Assembly (NCBI GenBank): GCA_024305405.1 | Contig: JAKNDB010000104.1 | Span: forward strand, 1,426,001 to 1,490,000 | From: Dirofilaria immitis | Lineage: Eukaryota > Nematoda > Chromadorea > Rhabditida > Onchocercidae | DNA: 64,000 nt | Reading direction: 5' to 3' | Shown: positions 3,814 to 59,525 of the stretch, piece by piece | How positions within the stretch are numbered: position 1 is the first letter of the stretch | Layout of the letters: every line of letters begins with the position of its first letter | Position numbers and translations under genes: made by a program | Notes under the pieces: generated by a model | Database searches by the model: none | What the model was told of the DNA's origin: nothing | Seen by the model: only the letters and a program-made list of their open reading frames with translations

Positions 3814-3819
3814 TTTATT
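3814..3819 (-). terminator. Candidate polyadenylation signal for bcl-11
   Basis: An AATAAA hexamer on the minus strand lies about 155 nt past the stop codon; another lies at 3842-3847. In such AT-rich DNA the motif is common by chance, so this is only a candidate. Confidence 0.3.
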
Positions 3820-3971
3820 TAAATCATTGAAAATTATATTATTTATTTAAATCTTCCTCGATATAATTTTAATTTTAGAATCAAGATAAAAAGATAAAGA
3901 ATTATTATCTAGTGCATAGCCCAGTCCTATTGTTACTCCGCACAAGAAATAAGACGATTCCTGTACCTGTT

Positions 3972-7018: not shown

Positions 7019-7088
<70 letters not shown>

Positions 7089-13000: not shown

Positions 13001-14087
13001 TATTTGCACGATTTTGTTTAAGCGTATGGAGTTAGACTCATTAAATCTCGATATTTTTTGATGCAAGCCTAATTTTTCAAAAAGAAAGTGCAGAATTTAC
13101 CATAGGATTTATTCACGGTTGTAATGGATGGAGTAGGTCGAGTGATGTCATCATAGACTTTCGATAAGAATAATTCACTTTCATCCGTGACATTAGCTGT
13201 GCTATTAACCACACTAGTAGTAGCAGCAATAATAGTGGTAGAAGACGACTGCTGCTGATCATTACATTTACCGGTCGCAGAAATAGTCATTGTTCTAGCG
13301 CGTTCTACTGCTTTGTCTACTTTTGCGCCACTGCCACCATCATGATTCTCGGCGTTCACTACATCTTCTTTAGTCGTTGCCGGAAGCTGTGTTGGCCGAC
13401 TTAACGCAGGTTTACGTCCACGCCTATTGTAATGTAGATTTTCAGATTCTAAATTACTCGAAAATTTTTTGGAGTAGAATTAAACTCATAAGCTCATTTT
13501 TTTCTTTCAAAAAAGGAAGAGATTGGGAAAAATTCAAAGAAAAAAACTTTCTGAAGAAATTTTGAGAAATACAACAGAAACTTGAAATCTTAGTGATCAT
13601 AACAAACAGTTAAAGCCATAAACACTATGAATAAAGAATAATTAATGATTGACTAGAGAGTAACAATTTTTATCGTTTCAATTTTCCAAGATAGAAAAAA
13701 GTGACCCAAAACGGAACCTCCAGAGATTTATCCGATTAATAAGCATACTATCTATTCCATGATGGTCCAAAAATGACGCTTTATTTTGTAACTAATGTTA
13801 AACATTTATTAGTAATCTCTGAGAAAAATAATTAAAATGACTGGAAAACATCAGTACTCATTAGTGGAATTGCAATTCTTCATCAATATGGCAATATTCC
13901 TTGGATTTTACGAATCTTATAAATATCAAATAACAATGTACCTTTTTGGTTCACTAATTACTGGTGTGTCGGGTAGATCTGCTTTTGAAGTTGTGTTAAT
14001 AGCAGCAACAGTAGAAGTGGTAGCTATCGTAGTTGGATTGTCATTTCTTCTTAGAATTTTCGAACAATTTCGAAGGCCACTGCTCAT
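3972..14087 (-). CDS. bcl-11: BCL11/CTIP-family zinc-finger transcription factor (multi-exon gene)
   Basis: This is a nuclear C2H2/C2HC zinc-finger protein of the BCL11A/BCL11B family, predicted to bind DNA and act as a transcriptional regulator. Exons that I placed by splice signals and phase: 14087-13942, 13423-13101, 12892-12611, 12407-12276, 12106-11968, 8638-8505, 8094-7923, 7764-7699, 7452-7362, 7249-6944, 6632-6466, 6304-6053, 5649-5530, 5204-5062, 4811-4702, 4572-4406, 4333-4238 and 4190-3972, giving about 1,020 codons, longer than vertebrate BCL11A. Fingers lie near residues 235-255, 352-375, 768-790, 796-818 and 830-853. The C-terminal array is almost identical to the family signature ([32 protein letters not shown]). 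The frame needs one extra base in two exons, and the junction between exons 2 and 3 is uncertain in phase. Family assignment is firm; exact ends of exons 1-3, 7 and 15 are not. Confidence 0.85.
4702..4811 (-). CDS. bcl-11: bcl-11 exon 15, C-terminal finger 3 (C2HC)
   Basis: The exon encodes [20 protein letters not shown] then RKCVV. Spacing is Cys-x2-Cys-x12-His-x3-Cys, so the last ligand is Cys rather than the His of vertebrate BCL11. Two acceptors are possible. TTTTCTGCAG (start 4798) is stronger but out of phase with exon 14; ATGCAG (start 4811) is in phase. The donor AACC/GTGAGA (4702) suits exon 16. If it is not used, the frame runs on to a stop TAA (4625-4627), giving an alternative short C-terminus. 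Confidence 0.85.
5062..5204 (-). CDS. bcl-11: bcl-11 exon 14, C-terminal fingers 1 and 2
   Basis: This exon encodes [20 protein letters not shown] followed by [20 protein letters not shown] and RTHGQQE. These match [20 protein letters not shown] and [20 protein letters not shown] of BCL11A. The TGEKPY linker and Cys-x2-Cys-x12-His-x3-His spacing are intact. It is the most conserved part of the gene and the basis of the family call. Confidence 0.93.
5530..5649 (-). CDS. bcl-11: bcl-11 exon 13 with first half of C-terminal finger 1, frame broken
   Basis: The exon begins after TTTCAG and reads [19 protein letters not shown] then [11 protein letters not shown]. The zinc-finger start RCTFCCK lies in a different frame, immediately after a run of five A (plus-strand T run 5554-5558). 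One additional A would join the two frames and also make the exit phase 0, as exon 14 needs. The exon stops after TGCAAA, and the finger continues as VFTNRSNL in exon 14. Confidence 0.7.
6053..6632 (-). CDS. bcl-11: bcl-11 exons 11-12, linker before C-terminal fingers
   Basis: Exon 11 (6632-6466) encodes [20 protein letters not shown] and an Asn-rich stretch, leaving phase 2 at ACAAG/GTTTCC. Exon 12 (6304-6053) encodes a Ser/Pro/Gly-rich region containing [13 protein letters not shown], a likely nuclear-localisation element comparable in place to SPFSKRIKLEK of BCL11A, and SKLSRLDDE. It ends phase 2 at GAGAG/GTTTGT. A stronger GTAAGT lies four bases further on, but that phase does not fit exon 13. 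Confidence 0.75.
6944..7249 (-). CDS. bcl-11: bcl-11 exon 10, polyglutamine exon
   Basis: After an Ala/Ser-rich lead-in (ATLAAVAL) the exon encodes 41 uninterrupted glutamines (7110-6988), mostly CAA with CAG at both ends. The frame then breaks at 6987/6988, where CAA-CAG-CAA is expected but CAA-AG-CAA is seen. With one C restored the exon continues Gln/His-rich to HPSLQ and ends phase 0, which is what exon 11 requires. As written it ends in phase 2 and would hit a stop in exon 11. The same bases read as polycysteine on the plus strand, which is a shadow. Confidence 0.75.
6985..7113 (+). repeat. (TTG)n/(CTG)n trinucleotide tract coding polyglutamine
   Basis: About 43 triplets, read on the minus strand as CAA with terminal CAG clusters inside bcl-11 exon 10. 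Likely length-polymorphic. The plus-strand polycysteine reading is not a gene. Confidence 0.95.
7362..8094 (-). CDS. bcl-11: bcl-11 exons 7-9, linker after second finger
   Basis: Three exons: 8094-7923, 7764-7699 and 7452-7362. Exon 7 encodes [18 protein letters not shown] and a Ser/Pro-rich stretch. Exon 8 encodes [20 protein letters not shown], which parallels the DFSRRLRELAGN region of BCL11A. Exon 9 encodes [11 protein letters not shown] and a Ser/Thr stretch and ends phase 2. The exon 7 donor is weak: ACG/GTCTGT at 7923 is preferred, but CTG/GTTCCA slightly upstream has the same phase. No zinc finger is present here. Confidence 0.7.
8505..8638 (-). CDS. bcl-11: bcl-11 exon 6 with second zinc finger
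   Basis: The exon encodes a C2H2 finger, [19 protein letters not shown] then IAH, directly followed by GLRICE. This matches the BCL11A finger with [26 protein letters not shown]. Cys-x2-Cys and His-x4-His are intact. Phase 1 in and phase 0 out agree with both neighbours. Confidence 0.88.
11968..12106 (-). CDS. bcl-11: bcl-11 exon 5, Ser/Asn/Asp-rich linker
   Basis: Bounded by a TTTTCAG acceptor and a TTAG/GTGAGT donor, phase 0 in and phase 1 out, 46 codons. It starts [18 protein letters not shown] and is rich in polar residues with no finger. It is followed by the largest intron of the gene (about 3.3 kb, 11967-8639). Confidence 0.75.
12276..12407 (-). CDS. bcl-11: bcl-11 exon 4, completes C2HC finger
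   Basis: A clean TTTTCAG acceptor and GCA/GTAAGT donor bound exactly 44 codons. The first residues, ISRCDSKR, supply the closing Cys of the C2HC finger begun in exon 3 (EHK-ISRC versus EHKRKQC in BCL11A). The rest is basic and Ser/Pro-rich ([15 protein letters not shown]). Confidence 0.8.
12611..12892 (-). CDS. bcl-11: bcl-11 exon 3 with first half of N-terminal C2HC finger
   Basis: The exon encodes an acidic Ser-rich stretch and then [19 protein letters not shown] followed by VEHK, ending exactly after the Lys at AAG/GTCTCT. This matches the BCL11A segment [22 protein letters not shown]. The last Cys of the finger is supplied by the next exon. The acceptor is either AAATAG/GAATCG (12892) or CTCTCAG/CGTTTG (12868); both are phase 0. 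Confidence 0.75.
13101..13423 (-). CDS. bcl-11: bcl-11 exon 2, low-complexity N-terminal region
   Basis: This exon is entered at an ATTACAATAG acceptor with one base completing an Arg codon. It encodes [15 protein letters not shown] and then a Ser/Thr/Ala/Val-rich, probably disordered stretch. The favoured donor (TATG/GTAAAT) leaves phase 1, which does not fit any acceptor I see for exon 3. A weaker donor, ACC/GTGAAT, about 15 nt upstream would leave phase 0 and would fit. Confidence 0.6.
13942..14087 (-). CDS. bcl-11: bcl-11 probable first coding exon
   Basis: The proposed start ATG is at 14087-14085 and opens [16 protein letters not shown], followed by a Ser/Thr/Ala-rich stretch. The exon ends in phase 2 at an AAAAAG/GTACAT donor. 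Joining it to the next exon creates the basic motif [10 protein letters not shown], which resembles the SRRKQxKP motif that opens BCL11 and SALL proteins and recruits NuRD in vertebrates. That functional parallel is inference. The plus-strand frame over the same bases is also open (103 codons), but it lacks splice context and family similarity. An upstream noncoding or coding exon cannot be excluded. Confidence 0.5.
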
Positions 14088-17275: not shown

Positions 17276-18537
17276 AGAGCCAATTTGAATGACTGTCTAA
17301 CCAAAGATTAACAAATCAGGAATTTCTCGTAACCTGAATTAATTTAAGTTATAAAGTTGTGAAGAAAAAATGAACATTTCATGTCATATGTATAAAATAA
17401 TCCATAAAATCCATTTTTTAACAATAATGGAAAAGTTATAAAATAGAATAAATTTAAATGCAAAATGATCCTATATCTGATACTGTTTGAGGGATGTTAA
17501 ATTCATTTCGCATTCTGCATAGTTCCGTAATTTTCATTGAAAGCAGATAATGAACAAGAGAATTAATAGTAAAGTATTCGGTGAAACACCAACTCAAAAC
17601 GAATTATGATTAAAAATTAATATGCTATAATGACAAGTTCTTCAATCTAAATCAAAACAGTATAACCAAAATGACAGTGATAGAGACGCAGCAGGTCAAA
17701 AATGACATCTATTAGAAGATGAAAATGTGACAAAATTGCATTTGCTAAAATATTTTAAACTGAACAATGCTAAATAAATGATGAAGAAAAAGAGAGAGAG
17801 AAGAGCACTTGAGGTAAAAGAGAAAGAGATGCATACACAAAAGAATCGAAATGAAATGATAACTTCGGGTAAGGTCAAAAGTTGTCAACAAGGTCAAAGG
17901 TAATCAACTGCTCTTGATCGATCGCTACGACACTCCAAACTACTTTTTTCCTATATCGCTCTCTTCGTGACGAAAGATAATGTGATAAATGGCAAATAAA
18001 TCTTCTGTTATATAAATTAATCGAATTATAAAATTGGTTATTAGAATAGGGCACAGCAAATTAGTTCAGTTATTTAGAAATTCTTATAAATTACAGATTT
18101 TACGCAGAATGTGAAAATGATGAATCCTAATTCTACAATAATTCTACAACCATTTTCTTAGTGACACTTCATAAGAGTGCTCGTTGTCTTCAACTGTAGA
18201 TATTCATTAAGCTTCTTTATAGTAATTCGTTTTAAAAGACAGGAGAAAAAGTGGAATAATAATTAGACATCAATGGATAATGAGACATAATTCTTCCTCA
18301 AAATCTTTGCCAGTCATTATTCATCTGCTATAATCTATTCCATTCCATCCAAAAGGATTTCCAAATCAGCTTGAGTGGAATTTTACTTTTTTATCCGTAA
18401 AGCGATAAGTATAAAAAAACCGCATAAACGAGAATAAAAACCGAAGAATAGGAAAAAGGGTCACAGCTTGGCAGTAAAATGAGCCCAATAGCACTTCGAG
18501 GATACACATTTTTCCGTAAACTTCACAACAACAATAA

Positions 18538-18544
18538 CACATAC

Positions 18545-18581
<37 letters not shown>

Positions 18582-18628
18582 TACATATACACACATACAC
18601 ACATACACACACACACACACACATATGC
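18538..18628 (+). repeat. (CATACA)n/(CA)n microsatellite
   Basis: CATACA repeats grade into CA repeats, immediately before the (ACT)n block. Confidence 0.95.
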
Positions 18629-18650
18629 ATAACAGCTATTAATATTATAG

Positions 18651-18836
<186 letters not shown>

Positions 18837-19340
18837 AAACATCATAGGAAATGCAAATAACAACCACCCGCCGCTATCAATCGACCAAACATCACTCCGC
18901 AGACGGCAGCTCAATCTACTATTATATTTCACAAAATTTATTACCGATTTGGATTATTGAATATGGTCAATTGCAGATTTCAGTCGTATCGCATCCTGAA
19001 GAAAGTGCAAGGTACGAGAATTATGACAGATAATATGAGCAATTTTTAGTAACATGGGTCATTATTTCGAATGAAATAATTTGCAAAGTATGAAGTAAGG
19101 TTAAGAAAAAGGATCCTATCAAGTAAAACGATCCATTCCTTCTGCGGGAAAAATGCGGACAAATAAGAAAGCACAGATGAGACAAGAGAGGAAATAATCA
19201 TGCCAAGGATGCGAATCATTCGGACATTACAGACAAAACGGCGGGGACATGGGAAGGTTGCAAGGAGGCAAGCAAGGTGTCCTACTACCTATACATGTAT
19301 ATATTTGTATAAATGATAATACATTAAACCTTTACTTCCA

Positions 19341-21729: not shown

Positions 21730-21875
21730 CATACACATACACATACACAATACATACATAGAACCGCACATACACATACACACATACATACACACACATA
21801 CATATACACACACACATACACACGCACACACACACATACACACACATACACACACACATATATATATATAATATA
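21730..21875 (+). repeat. (CATA)/(CA)/(TA) compound microsatellite
   Basis: Mixed CATACA, CA and TA repeats over about 145 bp. Confidence 0.95.
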
Positions 21876-22050
21876 TACACAGAAAATTACATGAATATAT
21901 ATACGAGATGTGTCCATCCATCTATCCATCCTTCATCTATCCGGCGGTCTGTATGTTTGTATGTCTGTCCGAATAGAAGCCAACTTTCAATATATGTGTG
22001 ATATGTTCCTCTTCGTTTTTAAATGTATGCTTTTTTTTCTCCATCGATGT

Positions 22051-22061
22051 ATCTATGTATA

Positions 22062-22126
<65 letters not shown>

Positions 22127-22143
22127 GTGTGTGTGTGTGTGTG
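22051..22143 (+). repeat. (GT)n microsatellite
   Basis: TATG units lead into about 40 GT units with two GC interruptions. Confidence 0.95.
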
Positions 22144-22206
22144 CGTTGATCGGTCGGTCGATCGGTCTCGGTTGGACGGTCGGCTGGTCGATCGACCGCT
22201 GATCGT
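22144..22206 (+). repeat. GC-rich GGTC/GATC tetranucleotide-like patch
   Basis: Directly after (GT)n the sequence becomes unusually GC-rich, with repeated CGGTCGGTCGATCGGTC-type motifs that include short palindromes. Confidence 0.75.
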
Positions 22207-41533: not shown

Positions 41534-44500
41534 TTAAATGGCATGTTGATGTGATTTAATTAGTGGCCCAGGTTTCTCAATCTCCAGTTCCTTAATCATC
41601 TTTTTCACGGCACGCGAATTCGAATCCAGCTCTCCATCCAATTCTGCACATTGCTCTACCGTAAGTGAGTGCGTTGCCTGAAATATATATAGAAATTATG
41701 ATAACCTAAAAATTTGTATCATCTATCGCTAGTATGTAGAAGATCAAAACCTGGCAATACTGTACCGATGATCGAATCCTTTAGTGTTACGAATTGATAC
41801 CATTGGTTGCAATGATTTTGACAACCCTGTTACGGCATCTTTGGATAAACTTCTGTCCTTGCTATCGATGAAATCGGTAGCTTCTATAAATTTCATTTTT
41901 AGTCTGATTTTGTGAAGAGATTTCTGTGCTATAAATTAAAATTAGCCATCTTTTAAGTTTATTAAAAATGTTCAATCTATTGCCATCAATTCACAACCAT
42001 TAAATTCTTCTTTTGCTATATACGATTCTAAGAAATAAGATATAATCAGAATATTTATCACTTCCAAAGTTATAAATTGAACAATGACAAACCTTATCAG
42101 TGTTGTTTTCATTGTTCTTACATTCCTTTGCTTGTTTGTGCCGTAATCTCCAGACTTGTTCTGCTACCTGCGATGAGCGCCGTCGATGATGAACGTTGTG
42201 ACAAGAGCCTAATCCATGGAACCTTAAATACTAATATTTAATTAGCACTCAAAAAGTAAATCCTATTAAAAATGATCTGGTAGAATATGACAACTGAGTT
42301 TAGTGAAGTTACAAAATTGAAAAATATCGAAAAACTATCAACAGTACTTGAAAAGTACTAAAACTTACTTTTCACTAATATGTGGTGATTCTATCCACGA
42401 CGGAATACTTTTGGTTCATCACCATCTTCCGATTCCAATGCAAAGTCACAAGAAACACTGCATTCCGCTGCTGCAACAAAATCGAATCATTCCAGAAAGT
42501 TTATGAATAAGCACTTATAACGGATTCACTTATGCTAAAATCTAATAGAAGAAACAAATTCTGCTGCTTCTTACTCCTTCAGTTCCTGGACATGTATTTT
42601 CCGAAATAAGATAATAAGCATTAAAGGGAGAGGCTGATTTCTGAAGCACTGATAAATTCCTCTAAAATCATCAAATCTCATTACGAAAGCAAGAAAAATT
42701 CTCGGGCATCAACACATTCCTCAATTTTTTCACATGACACACAGTATTATTATCATCAAAATAATAATTTAAAATTGCTTCTAAGAACAAAAATGAGAAA
42801 AATAGTTAGCTAACCTATAGTTTTTTCATTAAATTTGCCGGTATATCAGTAGTAAATGATAAGCAATTTTTTTCAGATTCTCAGTTATTCTGTACTTTTC
42901 ACTGAATAGAATTTCTTCCTCAGTTTTATTCAGCGAATGAGAACGTATTTTAAGTTCTTCTGATAAGTCATCTAAATCTAAATCTTTTTGAATTTTATTG
43001 CAAACAGTACTGAGATTTTTGTAAAACAATTTCTCCTTTCACCGTACATACAAGTTTTTGTAAGCATAATCTAGAGAAACGAGGCTTCCTGTGTTAAATG
43101 TTACGAGATTCAGTGATTAATTGCATATCGATATAATATCCTCGCCATTACAACGAAGCAGGAAAAACAAATTCTATTTTTCTCATCTTAAAAATTTCAG
43201 AAAAAAAATCTGGGCAAAACAATTTCAATTTAAAGCATTATCCGTCCAAATTATAACCAATTTTTATTAATTAAATGACAATTCTTATTGACGATAGACA
43301 AGCCACTGCAATGCTTTCTTTGCATATGACCATTCTGGTATAACCAAGATGCATTGACATTAGGCGTTATGTTGGCTCAAATTAAATAATTGAATCAGCA
43401 TATTGCTGTTACTAATTACAACTAATTTTTAACTCTTAAACATTTTAAATATAAAGATATTTAGCTGTCTATGCAGTATTTTCACAGAATATTAGAGTGA
43501 CATTCAGAATGCATTAGAGTCGTTCTGATTTTTAAGATTTTTGAGAGAAACCAGTAATTCCTCAATGCTATTATAAGAAAGTTTTGCTTAAAAGCAACCT
43601 CTACATTCATTAGCAAGAGCATCAAGTCTAATGGCTGCTTCACTTCGTGATCCGATTTTCCTCCTAGTATCATCTTTGCTATCGCTTTCACCAAAACTAT
43701 TTAGATTTTCTGCATTCTTCATCAGCAATTGCAGTTCCTGAAAAAACTTCCAATTTAATTGGACACATTGTCTTTCTTTCTAGCTTCATCTTCAGATTTT
43801 TTTCTTTTTGACGGTTTAACTTTGTCGAGTGTGATCTTCATGCTGTCAAAATTCGAATTTAGACAAGCTAATTGATGAGTCATTCATTCTTGGAAAAAGA
43901 TCATTTCATTTTAACCCATCGGTTAGAAATAAACATGAGAAAATTTTCCAAAACACTAACTCCATACAAAAGGGCCATCGTATCATCGAAATGCTTCTGT
44001 GCACAGCAACTAGAACTTGGATGAGGGCAACTGGGCTGAGATACCGAATACATACATGTATTGGAATCCATCATCAGACATTGACATCTGCAATAACTTC
44101 TCTTCTGCTTCATCCAATTTTATTTCAAAATTTATTTGTAATTCAATTTTTTTTTTTTGAAATAAAAGGAAAAAATTTGCAATTCAATTTCTAACAATTT
44201 TAAAATCAAAGATTGATTTGAAAAGTGGAAATTATTCAAATTATTGATAAAGACAATTATAATTTAGATATGGCCAAAAGACATTTGAATTTTGTTGTTC
44301 ACTAAACGAAAATACAAAAAGTCACCGATAATTTTGCTGCTGTTTATTAACAGTATCTGGCACAGTTTCCGAAGACTTTTTTGTTCGGCATTCCTGAAAT
44401 TACAAACTATCTGTATTTTGAATCACACTCCTTCAATTTTTATTGATGAAATGATTCGTTCGAAACATTTCAATTCTCAAAAATCAAATATTTTGAGCAA

Positions 44501-45126
44501 AAATAGATAATAATTCAATGTCAATAAAAAAATAAATGAATGCCTTTAAAATAGATGATGGCAAACGAGAGACAAAATTGTTTTTGAGCTCACAGCTCGA
44601 TTTTTTCTTCTTGTTTCACCATTTTCTTTTTAAAAATAAACTTTGAAAAGCAGCCGAACGTCCCGACACTTCAGCACATTCATATTCATAACCGTTCTCT
44701 ACAGATGTCGAGGTAGTTGGCTGAAAAGTAGTACCTTTGAATGATCGAAAGATCATTGTTTTATTAATTTTTTTTTTAAATGAAAATCGGAAAGTATATA
44801 GGAAAACAAAATGCCGCATGATTGATTTACCAAACGAGGATCGATATATATTAACTTCTGAAAACTGCCTTAAAAGCCAGCTCTCGCACTATATCCCAGT
44901 AACTTTCCAATCATGGTGAATGTAATACTGTTACTATATTTTATCAGCAAAGATTCAAGCGAAATGCTATATGTCAGGGAAATGTGAGAAATAACAATAT
45001 CAATTCAAAATAATTTACAAAAGATGGATATATACCTTGTTGTCATTATTAAAACTCCAGAAACGAGTAGAAGCTTTCAGGGAACATGAGCTTCCTGACA
45101 TGTTCCTGTTTCTTTAGTAAGATTTC
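41534..45126 (-). CDS. uig-1: RhoGEF C-terminal tail exons
   Basis: About ten small exons downstream of the PH domain. Representative peptides: [13 protein letters not shown] (45126-45036), [20 protein letters not shown] (44720-44620), [20 protein letters not shown] (44393-44326), [20 protein letters not shown] (44087-43961), [20 protein letters not shown] (43737-43599), [20 protein letters not shown] (43009-42815), [12 protein letters not shown] (42470-42369), [20 protein letters not shown] (42222-42122), [19 protein letters not shown] (41928-41751) and [20 protein letters not shown] (41677-41534). The tail is polar with no recognised domain. Frames need one extra base at 44622-44636, 42867-42873, 42821-42826, 42409-42412 and about 41780-41782. 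Exon 45126-45036 is unresolved in frame, as is entry into 43009-42815. Confidence 0.6.
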
Positions 45127-48100
45127 CTGTCGATGACTAAAAGACTTCTCGTAATATATAATGAAAGATAATTAGATAGTTTATCAAATATTCTCATAAA
45201 ATTAGGACTTAACATCCTCAAAGAAATTCTACGAGAAATTTGCATTAGCTGATATTAGTAAAATTTCTTCTCAAATAATACGAATCTTCTAACTTCACAA
45301 AGTGAAATTCTCTTCTAAGCAAATTTAATATATTCCACTGAATTTCACGACAGCTTGTGTTAGCATTAATTGATATTAGAGGAACTGCAGTGACATCTAT
45401 TAAAATCTTCAGTGGTGATCTATAACAAAAAAAAATAAAAAATAAAAGAACTTACCGCTTTCAAAATATTCTTACTGCCTGAAGAACTCCTTTTTCGAGC
45501 ATGTGATCGACGGAATGTTTGATTGGCATCAATACTTTTCGTCGCTTTTCAAGATACTTCGGTACTTTCTTATTGCCTTTCACATTTAATGCAAAACCTG
45601 AAATCTTTTGTATTAACATTCAGTTGTCAACATTCCTGGAAGATTAAATGCTGGAATGATTAACTTTTCTGATTAGGAAATTAGAAACTTTTGAATTGTC
45701 AAGTTAACATATTTCGTCTGTATCTAATATACAGTCGAAATAAAAACATAAATGTTATCATTCCCTAATTTTGTTGACTGAACTCACTGGTTGATTTCGA
45801 ACAGTCATCACTTAAACTAAGCATCAACATTTTAGTTTTTTCCGGTATTTGAACTGCATAATGATCCAACATCATTCGTTTCAGTTCCTTCATCCAGTGC
45901 CGCTTTTGGTCCATATTGGAAGCCTAAATTTTCAATGGTAAAATGGTGAAAGATTTTAAGTTTGCACAAAATTTCCCGAAAAAATAATTCCAGCACTCAC
46001 AGTGATCAGTTTTTTCACTCACTTTTTCAACTAATTATAAAAGATACTTACAAGGAAAACATATTGAATCTTTAGGTTATCGTAGGAGAGCACTTGAAAT
46101 GCCAATGGATCAATAGATATTGATTCATTCAACATCAAGCTTGAACACTGAAAAATTTGATTAAAAATATATTTGACATTCTAGGCATGTCCAATATCTG
46201 TCAATATTTCTCAGTCCTTTTTTTATCTGTATCAATTCATAAATGTTGAAAAGCATGCTTCTAACGCATATTCTAGCATATTTTGCCATAATTATCCATA
46301 TGTATATGATGTGAAGCAATCACTCACCATAATATAGTCTTTGCAAATCAACGCCCCATTCCGTTCTTTTACAATCAATAACATTTCTTCGAATAAAAAT
46401 AATTGTCGATTAGTTTTAGCACCAGCTAACTTAAAGGTAGCTTCCAAAAGCAGGTCACCATATTTAGATAGATCTTCCTTCTCATCGATACACCATTTAT
46501 GGAGAGCATTCTGAAGCTCACGTACCCGTTCCAAATGTTCAACACGCTTCTTCTCTTCGTTTATTTTCTCTGCTTGTGAAGTCATGCAACGAAGAGCTTG
46601 CAAAATGATCGCTCGATCACTATCCGATAGAATTTTTGGTTCGACTGAAGCTTTCAGGATATTCTGTAAATTAAAATTCCAATCAGAAATTCAAGAAATA
46701 TGCCAAGAAATTCCCAAGAAATAACACTGCTTTCCTAATTTACTTTATTCTTTGAACAGAACTTAATTATCAAAGTGCTCTTTTTTAAAAAGTATATTTA
46801 AAAAGTATCTTCTTTTTTTAAAAATATTTAAAGCATCATGAAAATCACCGGAGGCTGTCCTTCTATCTATCTGTAAAAGTTCCAGAAGAACTATTTGCCT
46901 TGACACTTCTAATAACAGGGAGAATCGAAATAATTGAAATGTTACTTCAAGAAAGAGATGATATTTGAGTACTCTTTGTACTGGCTTTAACAGATAAGCA
47001 CTAAGAGGAAGTGAATGCCCAAGTACAGCTTGTCGAAGTTTTAAGGTTTCGGCTATTTTTTATTTTTTAGTAAAGTTGACAATGTTTCAACCATTCTGAA
47101 ATTAGAACAAATAAATTTTCATGTTATCGGATTTTTCAAATTATATGCGCATCAACGAAAAATTTATTTACACAAAGAGAGTCATTCCTGCAAGTTACTT
47201 CAATGTTTAATTTTGTAAGACTGTGCAAATTTTTGGATGAATTAATCATTTCAAAATATTTAGCGCTGCGCAAAAAAAAAAGATTTTGCAATATTTGAAG
47301 AAAAACGCGAACATCTGATATTTGGTGCAATACATGACATAATCATTGAATCCATTCATATTATCCGATAAGCATTTTGCCATCTGAAACATTTATTCTT
47401 CATTTTATTCAAGCATACTATACTAAATGCTATATAAATTTGAAATTAATCATAAGCTTGCAATGTTGAGCTTTTGGTAGTGGTAAAATCACCGTTTTTG
47501 ATGTTTAGAGATCCCATTCCAAAGGAAAGAAACATATTCTCCCTGACTAACTTTGCTAGTTACAGTTGTAATCCTAATCCTAGAACTTTTTTATAGGCTA
47601 TGCTTGTTTCCTTTAAACTATTCAAGCAATAGTAATAATGAATCGATGCTTCAGCTGTATACAGTGTACACAATTATGCAGATCATCATGATATATGTAA
47701 GACCGCCCTAGTCGCATTGTCATCATAAGCACATTACTTGCTGCCACAATGCGGAGCTGAACCAACAATCCACGGTATCACGGCAATAACTCATTACCAA
47801 TTAACTACGTTGCACGACCCTACCAATAATTAAAATGTCATAAGTTGATAACGAAATAATTAAGAGGACAAAAATAATTAAAATCCCCATTCATAAAAAT
47901 AACTGAAGCAACTCACCGAGACAACACTCAATTGTGCGGCATCTAAATCGTGATATAATTTTTTATTGAACAAAAAGATACGCTCAATACAACCAAACGT
48001 GTTGGAAATGTCATCTACGGTCATTTCGAACTCCTCTCGATGATCGACCAGAAAATTCAAGTATCCCTACATATTGCTAATTAATTTCAATAGTTCAAAT

Positions 48101-51100
48101 AATTTTTCGTTTTGTTTATTAACTCACAAAAATTCATAGAAATACTGCTTGCAGAATATTCAAGATATCTACCTTTTTCACATATCTGGCCATCACTTCT
48201 CTCATCCTACGATAATTGTATAATGAGAAATGATATATTTTAGATAACTGCTAAGGCTCATTTTAATTATAAAAATGTAATAGTCAAAGTGACAACTTCC
48301 TTTAAACTCTTAGGATTACTAATTTAGCAGAAAAAAATTCATAGAAGTCATTTAACCAATGACTTCAACTCTCATTTGATACATTCATCCAAAAATTCTT
48401 GCTATTATTTCCTTTCCTTTTTCGCTGAAAGTTTCATAATTTGCTGTTGTTTCAGGAATTTATTTTTAGTGACTTATAGCTTAATTCAACAAACAGTTAC
48501 TAAGATTATCACAGTTTTTACACTGCTCCCGAAAAGTCAAAATAAAAAATGATCCATTAATCAGCGATATATTTCGAGGTTATAAAGAAAGGAAGAACAA
48601 GCACGAGACGAACTTGAAGAACTGAATGCGACGATTTCATTGAAACGAAATTGTTTGACAAAATAACACAACTATCAGCCCATGATTAACTAATGATAGG
48701 CAGATTTTGAAGAGAAGAATCAAAGTCCAAGTGTTATCATTGATATGCAAGGATGCAAGCCATCCTCATCACAAATAAAATTTGTAAAATACATGACGTG
48801 TAAACTACCTGTATAATGTCATTGAGATCATTAACATAAGAACGTTCCGTTTCCAGTAACTCCATAGCAATTCGATCTAACTGCGTTATTGTGCCGCTGT
48901 TTAACAACTTTAAACGACGTACTTCTGATAATGATGATTCATGTCTGAAACAATCAGTTAGGATTGAATAAAATTTTCAAAAGAAATTTATGAATATTCA
49001 AATATTAGTAAAATTTAAACTCAGATCGCGGAGAGAGTATGAATACGTTTGTTTACATTTTGACGAAACTCTCAAGTTCGTGAGATGAGAGATCAGAAAA
49101 GTGTTATGAACAAAATTATAGATTTCAAAATTACATAAATAGAAACCAACGTCAGCAGCTTTTTGCCAGAAGAAGCATTGAGTGAATGAACAGTATCATC
49201 GCTTATTTCAGAGCTTCTCAAACTGCTTCGAGCTGAACTGTAACCTGTTGATGAGCTCACAAAACTTAATCGTTGTCCTGCTTCCTATAAAATGGCAATA
49301 AAAAATAACTGGATAACCAGATACATTTTTAAAAAAGCGTTTATTTTTTGCAACTAAACTAATCACGATAAACGTAGAATTTCGTTTCCTATAATTATTT
49401 GAAGGCTTGTAAAGATGACTTTTGAAAACATAATGTTTAATATTGTACAGCCTTAAGATTTCGTTGACCATCTATTTTAGTACCTTGAACAACTTTTGAC
49501 CTAAAATTGATGGGTTAGATCACTTACAGGATCATCATCAGTATTTATACTGGCTCCATTTTTATAATGTTGATGAGTGGTAATATCAATAGTAGTAGTA
49601 GCATTATTAGCACCAAGTATAGTAGAGGTATGCTGATAAGATCTTTGAAGATTATCAAGAGCTACAGCCATTTTTTGCAGATTATTTGCTCTGTCCTTCG
49701 ATCTTGTTGCCAACGATTGTGAATTTAATACATTTGTCGTCTTTTGAGAAGAACGATTCACTTCTACTTCCCTGTAAAGTCAGTTAAGTTGGAACGGAAT
49801 ATTTAAAGGACATGAATTAAAAAAGAATGTAAATGCGATAAAAAATAGAGAGGCAATTAAAAGCCATTAAGTGCTTCAGCATTCCTTCACTTCTTATTTT
49901 AACTTTAAGAACTAACTGCTTTTAGTTCTTCAATATTTCTTAAGAGAGATTCATCAAATGATGATCTCTAACTGAGACGATCTGCTATCAAAATAAATCA
50001 ACTTAGCAATTATGTTTCTTTCAATGAGCTCTTTGGAAATATTTGAAAAATACTGTTGTATACATCCCCTCGAAAAATATTTCTATTCTTTTCTATATAA
50101 ATATCATTTTTTCCCTCTTGAATCTTTCTCTCATTCTTCTCCATTCAATTTTCTCTCTAAAGTTTTATTCCTTTTTGATTATACAAGAAAATTCAATGAA
50201 TATAAAACATTAAAATTTTCGGAAAATACAAGTAAGGAAATGGATACATTGAAGATAAAAATATTTGTCAAAAAATAAGTTGGTAAATTCATCGATCAAT
50301 AATATCATAACCTGTCCTTCATAAAGATTTTCGATTATACTTTAGTCATAAGCATCTCATGTCGCGAAAAGACTTTTTATTTCCTGCGACATTATATTGT
50401 GATTATTCTACTAGAAAAGAAACGAAGCAGAAAAATCCTGGAATGCAAGTAAGATAATAAGATATCAAGATAGGCATAGTAAAATATAACAGCATAATTT
50501 CAGATCTCTATCCAAATAATTTAATCTAAGAAAAATGGGTTTTAAATAGAAATATATTTACATGCGCCTCAAATATTTCTCGATGATATCACTTAACGTT
50601 TCCGTAAGAAATATTTGGATAAGCCAGAATATGAGATTTAATAGAAACTGACATTAAAGAATTAAGCTGAAGAAAAAATTTAAGCCAATATTTGTAAATT
50701 ATTTTAAAACTTTTTTTTTGGACAGCGAAACTTCACCTATGTATTGCATTAATTAATTTACATTAGAAACAGTGCAAACTATGTTTAGAAAGGAATTTTT
50801 ATGTATTATGAAAACTTCCCCCAAAGAAAGAGTAAAAAAAAGATAGAAAAGTGAAAGAAACTGATGATCATTTATTCTTGCCCAATCACTAATAAATTCA
50901 GGACAAACTATAGAAATTATTGCAAGCACCACGAATAGAATATGCAGATTATAGTTATGATATAATAAATGTTATCAGATAAATTTCAATTTTTTTTATT
51001 CATTCATAAGATTCATTTTTATGATAACTCATAAGGCTAAATTTTAAAAAGCTGTAAAACAATTCAATTAATTAATTTATTCATTTGATATTTGTTAATA

Positions 51101-54100
51101 TCATATCCAAAAACCTATAAGCATAATTAATTTATTCTAATGTCTTTCTTATGGATGAATGATTGGTTAAATAATCGTAGATTTATTTAATAATTGATTA
51201 ATAAACAAAAATCACGACAACATAACCTCTGCTTAAATATTTTTAATTCCAATTAAAGTATTGGATTTCTTATGGATGAATGATTTGAAAAATAATCGAT
51301 ATCTCTGCTCGAATATTCTTAATTCTAATTAACTGCAATCTAAATAAATTTGAAACTGATTAAAAATTAGAATTATATTATTGGATTTTATAATTAGTAA
51401 TACTTAAGAAAGAAATAATTGTTGTAAAAGTATCACGCGATGGTATTGACAGGAAAGCGCAATAACATATTTACATTTTGAAAAAATAGAAATAGAAACT
51501 TCAGAAAAAAAGTTCGTTGATTTATAACCAATATTTTAATTCGAAGTTTTAATGCGACAAAAATTTTTTTCATAACCTTGAAAAGTATTCTTTTATCGTA
51601 TTATTTATTAAATATAGTTAGATACATCTATTGTAAAGATCAAGCAATAAAAAAATCTCATGAATGTGCAAAATTAGTTTAATTATAACTAAGTGAAAAG
51701 AAGAAAAATAAATCGAGATGTGTGAAAGAGACAAATTGTAAAATAATTGCTATAATTTTTGTGATGTGAAACGCTGCAAGAATTAATTTATTCATTATCC
51801 GTGATAAGACTTCAAGAATTATCTATGATTTTTTAGATTAGAACCAAAATTTTTTGACTTATTTTTAAAATTATTCTAGAGGAACCGGTGATTGAACTAA
51901 TTTTAACACTTCCAAACGTAGAACTTTGATGAGTACGTCAGAAAATATCAAAATTAAAAGTTGATGTTTGATATGATCAGTGCTTTAATAAGTTTCGCTT
52001 CTCACATTGCTTCTTTTAGATATTTTCATCCGTTATCATATCAATTTTACTAATAATGTTTCCAATATTTGAGATATTTGCCCATTGAATGAAATAAAAA
52101 AAATGAATTAGATGATAAATTGTTAAAAGAAAGTGAAAATAAACAGTTTGATAGTTGGCAGGAGAAGAACACTATTCATCATATTGGCATGATCATCATA
52201 ATCGATGACATGATCGTTTTTCAAAATGATTTTTCATATTGATTATGAAAATGATTTCAACAATTATATCTAAAAATTTTAAATATGCTTAATAAGGAGA
52301 GAAAATCATAGTAACATCTGCATGTAATAATATTTAAAAATAGGAAAGAGTAAAACGCATAGTGCTATTACAACTGTGTAAGGAAATTTTAAGTTGTTAG
52401 ATTTCTTCAATGAAAAGAAATAAACGAACCAAAAGATTGAATTGTTAGGCATAAAATAGCCTGCTGCAATTGGAGATGGTGAGACTCTTGGCTGCGAACC
52501 TAACATTTTGTTTCCAAGTCAACTGAAGAGGGACAAAGAGCCATAAATTTTAGCATAAGTTGAGGAATGATTGAACTTTGTTACTAAGGCAGAATATGAG
52601 CATTAAGGATGGAAGATATGTAAACAAGATTATATACATAAAATACACGCATCTATGCATGAAGTTTTTGATGGATTAATGATTTAAATATGTATTTCTT
52701 TATAAAATAAAATGCAAACATGAAGAAGACATGTTGCAATAGCATCCATATAAAACAAACAAATCTTTAGTCCAAATATAGCATGCAGTATAAAATATAA
52801 CATGCAGATATGCAATATAGCATGCAAATATGCAATATAAAGGACATATGGTAGTATTACGTGAATAAATGAGCCAATAATGTAGATGTAAAACGGTCCT
52901 ATCAATTATAAATTTAAAAATCATTCAAATTTTCAAATATAAATATGTGGTAACTAACAGATTTTGATGATCGTCATAAGCTTCAGAAACTCATCAACTT
53001 ATCTTTGTCAAAAAGGTATTGAAATATTTTACAAATTCCATTCACTGAATTGATAATTTTATTCGGAAGCGAAGAGGAATGTCTTAAGTTAAACATTTTA
53101 TGATCTATCAGATTAAGACTATTTATTGTTTTTATCATTTAGTACATAAAATGCAAGTTGATAAGGTCATAAGAAGAGTAAAGTAAAAATGAGCAAAAGG
53201 CTCCTTCCTTTTCTATTTCAAACTTTATTTCTGCAAAAGAATGGAATGTGGTAAAAGATCGATTAAAAATAAAAAATCAAAAATAATATTAGACTAATAA
53301 GGCTTAAAGGGACTTATTAAGATTTATATCATTCTTCCAATGAAATCAGTTGGCTTGAGAGTAATAAATAAAGCCATCAGTATTGTTCTTTATTTTAGTG
53401 ATGCATATGGTTAGTTAAATACATATATTTTTAATTCCTACATCATTAATTCCTACAATATTTCTAGCATATTTTTCATCTGTACAAAAACAAATTATCG
53501 TTGAACGATTTGTATTTAATCGATATGCAAATGAAATTTAGAGAGATGAAACTGTTGTTGAAAAAGGATGAATAATGATGCAGAAAGGGATAACAGCGGT
53601 AAGTGGTAAATGAAAAGTTTCTGAATTATATTGAACAATGAAATTATGACAATAGTTGGTAGAAAATGAATGATTAAGGCATTAAACCTGTCTCCAAATA
53701 CCTTTTATAAGCAATACTAATTCACATTGATATTATATTATTAAAGAAATGAATAAGTTTGTTTCGGATGAAAGAAATGTAGAAATTATATAATATTTTT
53801 GAAAGCTGTCATTTAAGTAAATATTATCATTTCTATCTCTGTCCTATATATTCAATCATTTCGCTCGAATTGATAAGACAAAATTATAGCCCTTTTATTA
53901 AATCATAGAAAAAAGTTGAAATAGTAAGAGATGATAACTATTCCAAGATGATAACTATTCCAACTTATTGTGGCCTAAATTTAAGTCTTTGAATATTATT
54001 ATAGTCCTGATTGCAACTATGGCCATAGAAGACAGTGAAGATTTGCAACCATTTTAAACAGTATTGTTCTATAAATCAGAAAACATTAAATTAAAATCTT

Positions 54101-57100
54101 CCATGATAATGAATAATAAGCTTTTGTAGGAAGATATCATTTAAATAAATAAAACGATGATAAAAGCAAGTTTATGGTTAGCATTTAACATAATTTCACT
54201 GCTCATTTACATCTTTGGCCTAATAATATTAGTAAAATTTAAAAATAATTGGGTAGATACTTTCAATTAGTAATAAACAATTCCGTAATACTGCATCAAT
54301 ATACGAATATAGTAAAGGTAAGCAAAGTTATTTTTTATTCTATTTCAATAAAATTCAAATATTTTTAAGATTTTGATTTGTAATAATTTGTTGAAATGAA
54401 GTAACTTACAAATATTTTAAAAAGAGAAAAAGTGCGAGGATAATCAATAGCAAAATGTATGAAAAAGCTCAAAAAAATTTGTAAAAAAGATTTTATCAAA
54501 GAAAATGAAATTTTCGAATAGATTATGTTTTGCCTAAAATCTCATTCATTCCTATTTCCTATCTTTCCAAGGTCCTTTAATTGTAATAATGCATCTTCCT
54601 ATCAATACTAATATTACTGTTAGTGGAACTAGTTTATAGCAGGTGATCATCAGGCATTCTTTCGAACAATACTTCTACATTCATTAATATCAAATAAACC
54701 ATTAACAAATCAATTATGTAATTCAATTACCTACTCTTCAATTCTTTCATCGTTTATTCCAATAAACTCTCAGAATCTTTTCTTTTCTTTATCAACATGA
54801 TTCATTACTCATCTTCCTATAAATTTCTCAGATTTGTCCGCTAATAAATAAATAAATTGTTTTATGACTAGTTTATTCCATTTTTAATGACATAAACAAG
54901 TTTTCTCGTCTTTTCTTCCATCCAAAAGACATTGTTACTTTTAACATCGAAATATTATTTGATCAAAAAATGTTATCCTCAGACAACAATAGCTAAATTG
55001 TTTTTGTTAAATAAAAATTTTTTTAAAATACTTTTTCTTTTAACTAAAAGTTTTACTGACTTTAAGGCCTGGTATATTGTATAGTTAATTAACCAATATT
55101 TTTTTATCCTCATCAAGTTTTTTTCTGCAATAATGGAGGATCACAATATATCAAATTTTAGGTCTTATTTATTTCAGAATAAATCTTTTCTTCAAAAGGT
55201 TATGAATAAAAAAGTTTAATTACGTGATTTCTTAATGAAGGCAAGATTTCACCATTCCGCTTTACAAGTGAATATTCTTCAAGGACTTTACAAAAATTTG
55301 ATAAGTTTCGATATTCTTCAAGAAGTATGATTAAAGTGATGAGGGAATTCTTACTTAACTAGAGGCCCTTTTTATTTAGTTTATAAAACATCGGAGTATA
55401 TTATTGCAGGAACTTTTTTATTCAAAGATATTATAGAATTTTCACTTTAATATTCAAACTTTTATTGACTTAAATCGAGAATTGACTTAAATTGATAACT
55501 ATAAAAAGTGAACGTAAAAAACAATAAGGCCAAAGAATGAGAAAGAGGTATAACCAGTCTGCGAGTGGTTTGAGACATGAGAAAGAATTTGAGAAAGTCA
55601 GAAGAAATAAAGAGTGAACAGGTGAAGAAGCAATAAAGGAGCAAAAGATTGGTATTTGGGACAGAAGAAAATAGGAGCCATCAAGCGATGGTCAACAAAC
55701 AAATTCTTTTCTTCAATAAAGCCTCTATCATCCAATCCTTCCTCCATACATCTAATTTTTCCATTCGACAAATACCCAAATAATAATTCGATAAATAAAC
55801 TATAAATAATAAATCTATCCAGGCTTTACACATTTCCATTATCGAAAAATTCCGATGAAAAATGATATGATTGACTTTTCGGAGTTCGGGGAAATTTGGA
55901 TAAAATTCATCGCTTTTTGTTCACTATTGTAATCTAAATTTTCTCTTATTCTTACAAAAACAAAAATATTTATTTCTTTCATTTAATGATTAAATTGATT
56001 TATTTCATTTCGTTTCTCAATGGAAAAACAATTTTACTTTAGAAGCACAAATTAGGCTCAAATCAAGCTATTAGTAAAGTATTTCTGCTTTTTGATGTTA
56101 TTATTAATAAGATAGTAGTACATTTTATAATAGTGAATTAGAGATAATATCAACTGTAGTATTCCAAAAAGTATAACAGTATATTGTTTTAGTGGTATAA
56201 TAAATTTCATTAGAATCATTTAAGTCTTCATAAAAATCTCATGCTTCGGATATTATTAAAACACAATTATGCGTCGAGGATAGTTAGTTATATTAGGCTT
56301 TATTATTCATCGTTATCTATCTTTAGCCCAATTCGTCGAAACTTATCTAATGTCTAATCATTCTGATCATTTAAAAATTTATGACATAATATAATTAATC
56401 TATAATTATTTTCATTTTCCTATGCGAAAACGAACTATTCATTCTCTCTGCTTCATTCAGTTATTTTTAATGACTATTTTTGCATAAATGAGGAATAAAT
56501 TTAAAGGAATGCTACTAATTAGCATCAAAAATTAAGAAATAGTACGTACGAAACAAGAAAAGATGCAAGCCTTAGCAATTAGCATAAAATATTAGGAAAT
56601 ATAATGAAATACAACAAGGCCTAAGCCTCAAAAATTAGTACGAAATACGAGGAAATGATGTGTAATAAATAAAAGGATACATATTATTAATAAATTAATT
56701 TTTAAAAAGTTAGATGAAATTTTCATTTGACTTTTTAAACACACACTTATCGATCATATATATGCAAAAGTCAGCCATAAATGGATAAATATTTGATAAC
56801 TATTCATTTTTTATAAAATTACAGCACAAAATTTAAACCAGTAGTATTTCAAGATTGACTTCTTCGATGAAATTTTTTCAGCAGATCATTACAAAAAGTT
56901 TTTGAAACCTTGATTTCGAATCGATCGAAGTCTTTTGTTATAAGAGCAAATATTTTTAATAAAAAGTGGTATTGTTTTTATTTATCTGATAAAATGTTTA
57001 CTGGAAAAACAAGCCAAATTTGGTGAGATATCTACCAAATGTTTGGAAGAGTAAAGAAAAAAATATGAAAAGTATTTGATCTTACAAAGAGGACATGAAA

Positions 57101-59525
57101 ACATTTGACCTTAAAATGATATTATTTTCGAAGTTAAAAAGTCTTTTCGTTCTTTTCGCTTAATCGTTGTAGAAAAACAAATCAGATAATGCATGATTCA
57201 GAAAATTTGACATCATAAAAACGAGCGCAAATGTTTCTTTTTATATCCAAAAGTGGAAAATAATTAAGAAGATATTGCTTTAAAATTTGAACAAAACATT
57301 TCATTTTTTGCTTTTCTTGTTGCTTAAAAAAATATTAAGCAAAATAAGCGATTTCTAAAAACTAAACAATTCAGAGAACTTAAATGTTGCTAAAAGATGT
57401 CACAAAAAAATTACCAAATTAAAGTGATTTTTAAAAAATTTAATATTTTAACAAAGTTTTATTGCTAAACTGAGGCATTTTCGAGACGATTTTAGCACTA
57501 TATAACAATTAGAAAATTACAAAGTAAGCTATTAGCCTTCACATCTTTTCAACTCATTTTTGCAAAAAAATCAACAATTTTTAGATAAAAAAACTTGTCA
57601 GCATAAGTTAAATAAAACTAACTCGTCGTTCAATGAAATAATGTTGATAGGTAATGAATTGCGATTATAATCCAAATGTTTACGAATTATTTGTGCTTGG
57701 TTTCCATTGAAACTTGACGTTCTGACAATATCAAAATTGGTGCGAAAAATTGGTGTTTTAGATGTGAGCGATAATTCTTCAGATTTATTCCAAATTTGTG
57801 ACCCAAAGTTGGATTGCCGTTGACTGAAATTATGAATATTTATTATCAAAATCTATTTAAATGCAATAGTACATATATTAAAAATTTTGTATACCATTAT
57901 GAGAAAAATTATTCAAAAATAACTTACAAGAAAAAAGTAGAGTTTCCTCTATTACTTCCTTTCCTTTTAAAAATCTTGGTCCCTTTCCGGCTGTCGTTTG
58001 TACGGCAGCTAACTTATCAGCAACTAATCGTTGCAAAATTTTTTGCGATACGTCGCTATCTATTATCCTGTAAGAATGATAAAATTTTATAATAAAAAAA
58101 TTGTGAAAATCTATCTCGAGTGGACTGCTCTTCATTTCTATTTCAAGAATATATTTTTGGTTACAATAACTTTCAAATAAAATTCATTTGCAAAAGAGAA
58201 CAAAAATATTTGAAGATAAAATATTAAACTTTGAGATACTTATTTCTTACAATAAAATTAAAGATACAATAATTGAATCATGGCAAATGTATATTTATGA
58301 AGCCCGCTCATCTCTTAGTTAATATTTCTGACAATGCTGAAAACGTCCTGAATATATAAATATACAAAAACTCGATATGCCTTCTTCTATAAATTGTCAT
58401 CTCACAATATGGATGTGCAAAATACCAGTCACTACCAATTTTCTGGGAAGTACATTCGACAATGCAAGTGATTATTATTTATTGCACTACTTTTGCCCTC
58501 TTTTCATTCATCTAAACATTTTTGAATTCAACTTCTGAATTTCTTTTAATATGGACGAAGTGCTGCATCAAATTCAATTAATTTTGTACACATATGAACT
58601 AAAATATTTGAATCCCGACTTTTGCGAATCTCTCATGGAAGATTAGAATAATTTGGCTTAAGGTTAAGTGATAAAAAAATCCATGCTACATTGAGTCGCT
58701 GAAATTCTATTCCATTTACGAATTTTATTGAATTTATTTCAACTTATATCTTAATTTATAGACTACAAAGCATTCAAAAATCTAACCTGTATGCACGCGA
58801 TGAACATGCTAAAATTTCGGCTGATGTATGACCTGCAAAACTAAAAGCTTCGACAAAAGTAGTTTACTCTATGACAATTAATCCAACTGGATGAAAATTT
58901 TTTTTTTTTTGATCATGACAACTGGAAAAGATTGAAAAATATAAATCCTTTAATGATATAAATGAGGAAACTTTCGACATGATTTGTCAACTCGCAATTT
59001 GCATTGGATTTTAAACTTTCAATTACCCCAATCGTGTTCAATGGTTGTACTATTTGTAATTGATTCCTGAATCACTGCTGAACGTGCAGGTGTAGTCGTC
59101 GTGCTGCGATACCTAAAAACGTTACATCTTTCATAAATATCCAACCACAGTTTTTAGGCAGAATTAATTGAGGAATCGATTTGAGTCTGAAAATAGCTAT
59201 CCTTTCTTGAATAAACTTACATCGGCAGTTTTTCCAATGTTCCTGCATCAAGATCTCTCTCAGTACTTTTTAATGTAGTTGATGTTGACGACGATGATGA
59301 TGATGACGATAATGATGATAAAGATGAAGACATCAATATTTTTGTTAATTTCAAATTATCATAATCAATGCCATTGACATCACCTTTACCATCCCCGGTG
59401 CAATTATAATTGTTGCCTGATCGAAATTTTTCTTGAACCGATACCATTTCATCTTCTCGATTACAACACCCACCTAAATTCCAGTGTTTATAAAATTTGA
59501 TAAATTTGATAAACTTTAAGTTCAT
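41534..59525 (-). CDS. uig-1: DH-PH Rho guanine nucleotide exchange factor, PLEKHG1-3/UIG-1-like (multi-exon gene)
   Basis: A Dbl-family RhoGEF, predicted to load GTP onto Cdc42/Rho GTPases at the cytoskeleton. Exons placed: 59525-59221, 59112-59027, 58832-58787, 58067-57928, 57823-57684, 52499-52430, 49771-49528, 49284-49151, 48944-48809, 48066-47917, 47383-47313, 47095-46946, 46663-46328, 46147-46052, 45923-45788, 45597-45456, 45126-45036, 44720-44620, 44393-44326, 44087-43961, 43737-43599, 43009-42815, 42470-42369, 42222-42122, 41928-41751, 41677-41534 (TAA). This gives about 1,200 codons: a long polar N-terminus, a DH domain, an adjoining PH domain and a long polar tail. DH and PH sequences fit PLEKHG proteins best; the worm member of that group is UIG-1, so the symbol is by family resemblance. 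About eight exons need one extra base in a homopolymer, and a small exon at 43334-43293 may also belong. Confidence 0.8.
45456..46147 (-). CDS. uig-1: RhoGEF PH domain C-terminal part and basic linker
   Basis: Exons 46147-46052 ([20 protein letters not shown]) and 45923-45788 ([20 protein letters not shown]) complete a pleckstrin-homology fold, including the invariant Trp of the last helix, and match PLEKHG sequences such as PCSNLMLIES and EKRNWTHHIKRLILENHHA. Exon 45597-45456 encodes a Lys/Arg-rich linker ([19 protein letters not shown]). It needs one extra A at 45491-45495 to continue as [13 protein letters not shown] and reach the strong GCG/GTAAGTTC donor. A second GTAAG at 45475 is available without correction. 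Confidence 0.82.
46328..48944 (-). CDS. uig-1: RhoGEF DH domain exons and start of PH domain
   Basis: The Dbl-homology domain starts in 48944-48809 ([20 protein letters not shown]) and continues in 48066-47917 ([15 protein letters not shown] and [19 protein letters not shown]), 47383-47313 ([20 protein letters not shown]) and 47095-46946 ([20 protein letters not shown], the catalytic conserved region 3). It finishes in 46663-46328, which also holds the first PH strands ([20 protein letters not shown] and [13 protein letters not shown]). Glu of conserved region 1 and the KPVQR helix are present, so exchange activity is expected. Exon 47095-46946 needs one extra A within the runs at 47056-47068 to keep the frame. 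Confidence 0.88.
49151..52499 (-). CDS. uig-1: RhoGEF exons 6-8, Ser/Thr-rich region before DH domain
   Basis: The small exon 52499-52430 ([20 protein letters not shown]) is isolated between introns of about 5.2 and 2.7 kb. I accept it because phase 1 in and phase 2 out fit both neighbours. Exon 49771-49528 encodes [20 protein letters not shown] and a polar stretch. Exon 49284-49151 encodes [20 protein letters not shown] and [15 protein letters not shown]. The last donor is uncertain: AC/GTTGGT at 49151 fits in phase, TTG/GTTTCT at 49147 does not. Confidence 0.6.
51142..51330 (+). repeat. Imperfect tandem duplication in RhoGEF intron
   Basis: TTCTTATGGATGAATGATT followed by AAATAATCG, and an ATTTAATTCC-type block, occur twice about 120 bp apart with several differences. 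Intronic in the RhoGEF gene. Confidence 0.6.
52781..52845 (+). repeat. Short imperfect repeats around GCATGC
   Basis: Variants of ATAGCATGCA-ATATGCAATATA recur several times in a RhoGEF intron. Confidence 0.55.
53936..53973 (+). repeat. 18-bp tandem duplication
   Basis: GATGATAACTATTCCAA occurs twice in immediate succession inside a RhoGEF intron. Confidence 0.75.
56511..56650 (+). repeat. Imperfect tandem repeats in RhoGEF intron
   Basis: Three diverged copies of about 50-60 bp share AATTAGCATAAAA-TTA-GAAAT and GCAAGCCTTAGC-type blocks. Confidence 0.5.
57684..59525 (-). CDS. uig-1: RhoGEF N-terminal exons 1-5
   Basis: Exon 59525-59221 opens with an in-frame ATG (59525), but a CTGGAATTTAG acceptor near 59474 means the true start may lie upstream. 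It encodes a polar region ending in a 20-plus residue Ser/Thr tract and leaves phase 2. The next exons encode [55 protein letters not shown] and [19 protein letters not shown]. All phases agree except at exon 58067-57928. There, one extra base in the T/A runs at 57965-57973 lets the frame end phase 2 at the strong GTAAGTTA donor, as exon 57823-57684 requires. No domain is recognised here. Confidence 0.6.

Follow-up and report, generated by a model that had tools for sequence, protein, structure and literature searches.

The reading-frame breaks in the uig-1 orthologue of the dog heartworm, Dirofilaria immitis, are explained here as an assembly artefact, in which bases were lost from a nanopore-only assembly but not from the worm (probability about 0.96). 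The gene lies in the window, the 64-kb stretch of DNA that was analysed, which corresponds to bases 1,426,001–1,490,000 of a contig of 1,563,077 bases (C64). Eleven breaks were located in the gene, nine by alignment of an independent D. immitis protein (P0001) and two, in a cassette exon, by alignment of proteins from related filariae. An under-polished long-read assembly had been proposed as the cause in an earlier note on this DNA, and the proposal is upheld by the same one-sided deficits in three unrelated genes, by the dependence of the losses on run length, and by a source described as MinION-only. The artefact is of a known kind, and its source assembly has probably been traced.

uig-1 Orthologue and Its Protein Models

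The uig-1 orthologue occupies 41537–59447 on the minus strand, with 24 exons in the alignment of P0001, and encodes a PLEKHG1-like RhoGEF. In a protein search, the closest relatives were D. immitis and other filarial proteins, including Brugia malayi UIG-1, with Caenorhabditis elegans farther down; matches named UIG-1 or PLEKHG1 are among the best nematode matches listed. P0001 is a predicted D. immitis protein of 1141 amino acids from a contig of 15,145,155 bases, and the comparison with it was made at the protein level. Because that contig is larger than any of the 65 contigs of the assembly analysed here, P0001 comes from an independent assembly, which may be the HiFi assembly that the available text of PMC12562366 describes. 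The protein contains a RhoGEF (DH) domain (PF00621, 111.2 bits over positions 1–180) followed by a PH domain (PF22697, 42 bits). One DH-domain exon (46946–47095, minus strand, 150 bases in the P0001 alignment) carries both a 14-residue segment and one of the breaks; the open reading frame of this exon scores 24.7 bits against the Pfam RhoGEF profile, under the cut-off for the fragment alone.

A RhoGEF domain followed by an SOS1/NGEF-like PH domain, and exons conserved among filariae, are shared with the UIG-1/PLEKHG1-type RhoGEFs, such as C. elegans P0030 and B. malayi BMA-UIG-1 (P0006). The assembled letters alone differ from this type, whereas the independent D. immitis protein is ordinary, and the uig-1 gene of the worm itself is almost certainly intact and ordinary. 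In the available portions of PMC3355063 and PMC3257289, C. elegans UIG-1 is described as an exchange factor specific for Cdc42, as a binding partner of UNC-112, and as active in muscle assembly and in the engulfment of corpses by muscle. The D. immitis orthologue presumably serves muscle in the same way, as an exchange factor for Cdc42.

The deposited D. immitis protein P0005 (1003 amino acids), whose contig equals C64 in length (1,563,077 bases) and which is taken as the model predicted on C64 itself, presents a different picture. Against RhoGEF it scores 52.2 bits, over positions 1–140 of 180, compared with the full-length match of P0001, and its RhoGEF domain is truncated owing to the assembly artefact.

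Several features of the gene structure were noted in passing. An intron of 7.85 kb (49772–57622, minus strand) sets the first five exons apart; the two D. immitis models begin on its upstream side, and the matches of five filarial relatives (P0002, P0003, P0004, P0006, and P0014) all lie downstream, a pattern that points to an alternative start of the gene or to differing models. Two donors of the P0001-based model are weak, that at 44543 being of the GC type and that at 47312 reading GTTCGC (minus strand). Between the DH exons, an intronic open reading frame (47643–47765, minus strand) matches residues 230–254 of P0006 with 66.7% identity over 27 columns and is used as an exon in P0005. It was considered as a dispersed element and rejected, its single match in the assembly being itself; it is either an alternative exon that has been conserved or a conserved piece of intron by which two gene finders were misled.

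Positions of the Missing Bases

Proteins were aligned to DNA with introns allowed and with one missing and one surplus base penalised equally. P0001 was aligned to the whole gene, and the five filarial relatives were aligned to the stretch from 50000 to 41300. With P0001, 1120 codons could be aligned, 1118 of which are identical; split codons or breaks account for the other 21 of its 1141 residues. Nine breaks were found, eight of one base and one of two bases, giving 10 missing bases and no surplus base. As a control, P0005 was aligned to its own contig and gave 992 identical codons out of 992 with no break, so the aligner invented none in that case. The earlier note had called for comparison with an independent assembly, and at the protein level P0001 reads through all nine of the breaks that it covers; these nine of the eleven breaks are thus absent from an independent D. 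immitis assembly.

Eight sites of one-base deficits had been proposed from the sequence alone; six of them hold, and two lie about 40 and 65 bases away from the true position. All positions that follow are on the minus strand. The deficit proposed at 57965–57973 (T5A4 in the gene strand) is recovered with P0001 (break at 57970), upstream of where the relatives' models stop short. In the DH exon described above, the deficit at 47056–47068 (A6 T A6) is confirmed by P0001 and by all five relatives (break at 47055 or 47058). A third deficit had been placed at 45491–45495, across which the frame is in fact continuous; the loss itself is real and lies in the AAAA run at 45536–45539, where P0001 and all five relatives agree on one position (45535). 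At 44622–44636, a deficit was correctly recognised but its size was underestimated, as three bases rather than one are missing from the runs of A5, A4, and A6 at 44601–44631, according to P0001 (one two-base and one one-base deficit) and to one of the five relatives, P0004. The deficit at 42409–42412 (AAAA) was found again with P0001 and all five relatives (42411). In contrast, the frame is open at 41780–41782 and matches P0001, so the site proposed there fails; the nearby deficit is in the TTT run at 41847–41849, as placed by P0001 and all five relatives (41841 or 41850).

Two further deficits had been overlooked, one in the CCC run at 45080–45082 (P0001 and all five relatives, 45079 or 45088) and one at 41663–41668 beside a single C at 41667 (P0001 and all five relatives, 41667). 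The claim that all losses lie in runs of A or T is therefore wrong. The accompanying claim, that the changes are all deficits and never surpluses, stands against P0001.

The remaining two proposed sites lie in a cassette exon (42821–42978), which carries one-base deficits in an A7 run (42867–42873) and an A6 run (42821–42826). This exon is present in the models of Onchocerca, Loa, Elaeophora, and Cercopithifilaria and missing from those of Brugia (P0006) and P0001; because the P0001 model skips it, both sites are read from other species. Four of the five relatives (P0002, P0003, P0004, and P0014) place a break at 42873 or 42876, in agreement with the site in the A7 run. The site in the A6 run is likewise supported: three relatives break at 42826, and P0003 has a surplus of two bases at 42829, which is equivalent for the frame.

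Some differences seen only with the relatives were left out. A deficit of two bases, which four relatives place at 45785–45788 and P0003 at 45602, was read as a different exon end. The surpluses at 42829 (P0003), 44327 (P0004), and 47736 (P0006) were also left out, the latter two lying where the models do not use the same exons, together with the breaks at 45434 in P0004, which has an exon piece of its own there, and at 47675 in P0006.

Missing Bases in Unrelated Genes and Their Dependence on Run Length

Deficits of the same kind were found in a BCL11-like zinc-finger gene in the window and in two muscle myosin genes on contigs C61 and C26, so that four genes, sampled from three of the 65 contigs (C64, C61, and C26), are affected. 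For the three added genes, the references were proteins of other species; the matches listed for them included no D. immitis protein of independent origin. The BCL11-like gene (3406–13941, minus strand) shows three one-base deficits (about 5558, 5061–5069, and 3981–3986) at the same sites with P0121 from Cercopithifilaria and P0122 from Litomosoides. This gene contains a long CAG/CAA glutamine repeat near 6928–7140, which was excluded, and a break at 7095 inside the repeat was dropped from the count.

The C61 myosin, aligned with B. malayi P0154, has ten one-base deficits in 1944 codons; within a few bases, all ten sites were recovered with P0157 and nine with the shorter P0158. The deposited D. 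immitis myosin P0156, from a contig equal in length to C61 and taken as the C61 model, departs from the corresponding Brugia myosin in eleven stretches of at least eight residues each. Its alignment to C61 gave 1075 matched codons out of 1870 and no break, with a trace that seemed incomplete, so this alignment was not used as a control. The C26 myosin, aligned with Brugia pahangi P0182, has fourteen one-base deficits before the fetched stretch ends. Within a few bases, P0188 yields all 14 sites, and past the cut-off it adds a deficit of two bases and one surplus; P0180 yields 13 sites and, past the cut-off, a single deficit of two bases. Breaks of two bases each, at locus positions 9547 and 9581, were dropped; at that point the gene extends beyond the retrieved sequence. 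A further myosin on contig C65 (L033) gave 19 breaks, including 2 surpluses, and was left out because it had been aligned with a distant paralogue, to which 1071 of 1835 codons are identical. About nine further 10-kb myosin loci or stretches (in the range L030–L032 and L034–L039), which had no close reference, were kept outside the count.

Over the four genes, with uig-1 counted by P0001 and with the cassette-exon breaks and the dropped rows outside the count, 37 bases are missing in 36 breaks over 16,402 exonic bases, or 2.26 missing bases per coding kilobase. By gene, the losses amount to 10 bases in uig-1 (2.96 per kb), 3 in 2,807 bases of the BCL11-like gene (1.07 per kb), 10 in 5,852 bases of the C61 myosin (1.71 per kb), and 14 in 4,366 bases of the C26 myosin (3.21 per kb). 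All 36 counted breaks are deficits, and surpluses occur in the dropped rows only.

The losses are nearly always from homopolymer runs; only 2 of the 36 counted breaks have no adjoining run of at least three equal bases. When each break was assigned to the longest run that it touches, a rule that misassigns a few breaks (41667 to TT and 5069 to AAA), the break rate increased with assembled length among A/T runs of three to six bases. No break was found among 3969 A/T runs of length one and 1 among 1565 of length two, followed by 4/506 (0.8%) at length three, 8/178 (4.5%) at four, 12/85 (14%) at five, and 7/28 (25%) at six; the single run of seven bases is broken. For G/C runs of one, two, three, and four bases, the corresponding values are 0/4583, 1/790, 1/68, and 1/7.

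Probable Source of the Assembly

The analysed assembly comprises 65 contigs with 86,694,620 bases, a computed N50 of 4,253,153, and a largest contig of 12,535,412 bases. An ARAGORN scan of the 64-kb window gave no match, nor did an Rfam scan of the window at gathering scores. Long simple repeats lie at 18450–18850 and 21800–22200 and show up in the list of open reading frames as stretches built of one or two residues.

A D. immitis assembly of 110 contigs, 87,899,012 bases, and an N50 of 3,687,191 is reported in PMC9179477. According to the available text of that paper, it was produced from one MinION R9.4.1 flow cell with Guppy 2.3.5 and Flye 2.8.3 (-nano-raw); the correction step named there is Pilon with the assembly's own raw reads mapped and nothing else, and genes were predicted by GeneMark-ES. 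One contig of the analysed assembly (C18) has 3,687,191 bases, identical to the N50 in that paper. This match and the methods as given there point to a nanopore source without polishing by accurate reads. As the contig number, total size, and N50 differ and C18 is a single exact match, the analysed assembly may represent the published one after filtering or in a later release.

Proposed Origin of the Losses and Alternative Explanations

A possible route from base calling to the deposited protein can be outlined as follows. The base caller of the MinION R9.4.1 data may render runs of equal bases one base too short, and a fault common to most reads would be kept in the consensus as a short run, which correction with the same raw reads would be unable to restore. 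Each lost base would then shift the frame, and gene prediction on the contig would thereby be forced to skip or invent exons, leading to the truncated RhoGEF domain of P0005. The losses quite probably originate in base calling, rather than in the assembler or the polisher. The one-sided loss that grows with run length fits the pattern known from nanopore-only assemblies: the available parts of PMC7500977 and PMC12007338 describe short deletions that concentrate in homopolymers and break genes genome-wide; in the latter, the commonest deletion error of a MinION assembly is after four to five equal bases. According to the text of PMC7500977 at hand, short indels of such assemblies escape BUSCO, an insensitivity shared here, and polishing added more insertions than deletions, with polishers changing homopolymers against read support. 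The one-sidedness of the present losses differs from that excess of insertions after polishing; otherwise, there is no real difference.

Pilon correction with noisy nanopore reads, or the assembler, could instead have introduced or left the losses, which would still be an artefact, of another author. The use of mapped raw reads in the methods text of PMC9179477 is compatible with this, as is the behaviour of polishers towards homopolymers just cited. On the other hand, the counted events here consist only of deletions, unlike the outcome of polishing in PMC7500977, and the preference for runs of four to five bases is already reported as the commonest deletion error in the MinION assembly of PMC12007338, so that a correction-step origin is judged unlikely, though well ahead of the explanations that place the breaks in the worm or its messages. 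Some points count against an artefact of any author. The BUSCO completeness of 93.9% reported in PMC9179477 seems too high for an assembly with this many errors, an objection mitigated by the blindness of BUSCO noted above. Four of the five relatives show no break at 44601–44631; there, three missing bases equal one codon, so a gap could hide the loss in these more diverged relatives. Lastly, P0001 is itself a predicted protein.

Among the explanations that place the breaks in the worm, it is very doubtful that even one or a few of them are real, for example through a frame-disabled cassette exon skipped in D. immitis and used in Onchocerca and Loa. Decay of the whole gene, as an allele or pseudogene of the sequenced worm, is still harder to credit. 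Pseudogenes are usually recognised by frame breaks, and eleven are present in uig-1; nevertheless, its splice sites and nearly all aligned codons are kept, two muscle myosins and a zinc-finger gene break in the same way, and the central part of uig-1 (46300–49400, 3.1 kb) has no second copy, its single match in a DNA search of the assembly being itself. Decay would also be expected to leave surpluses and losses anywhere, whereas no surplus and only two events away from runs of at least three bases are found among those counted. The earlier judgement that decay of the gene is unlikely is thus sustained.

Introns or alternative splice sites deserve as little credence as a pseudogene. A good donor (GTAAGA) does lie beyond the break at 45536–45539, where an exon of P0005 ends (45476), and P0005 as a whole is a break-free, intron-based solution. 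Its cost is the loss of conserved segments: 217 of the 1141 residues of P0001 have no identical partner in it, including VLKYHLFLE of the DH domain. At 47056, both frames fall within one exon with no space for an intron, and the unbroken reading is encoded by P0001 and all five filarial relatives. The least probable account is that the message is mended at A-rich runs, by programmed ribosomal frameshifting or by slippage during transcription. Several breaks do lie in A6 or A7 runs, but about ten such events would be needed per message, likewise in the myosins, breaks are also found at AAAA, TTT, CCC, and GGGG, and P0001 requires no such event.

Implications

With the frame breaks read as losses from a nanopore-only assembly, gene models on the analysed assembly are not trustworthy letter by letter, and at the 2.26 missing bases per coding kilobase of the four counted genes several false frame breaks are to be expected per long gene. 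Deposited proteins are already affected, P0005 being without part of its DH domain and the myosin P0156 being altered. For searches for pseudogenes, gene loss, and selection in heartworm, HiFi or chromosome-scale assemblies are to be preferred.
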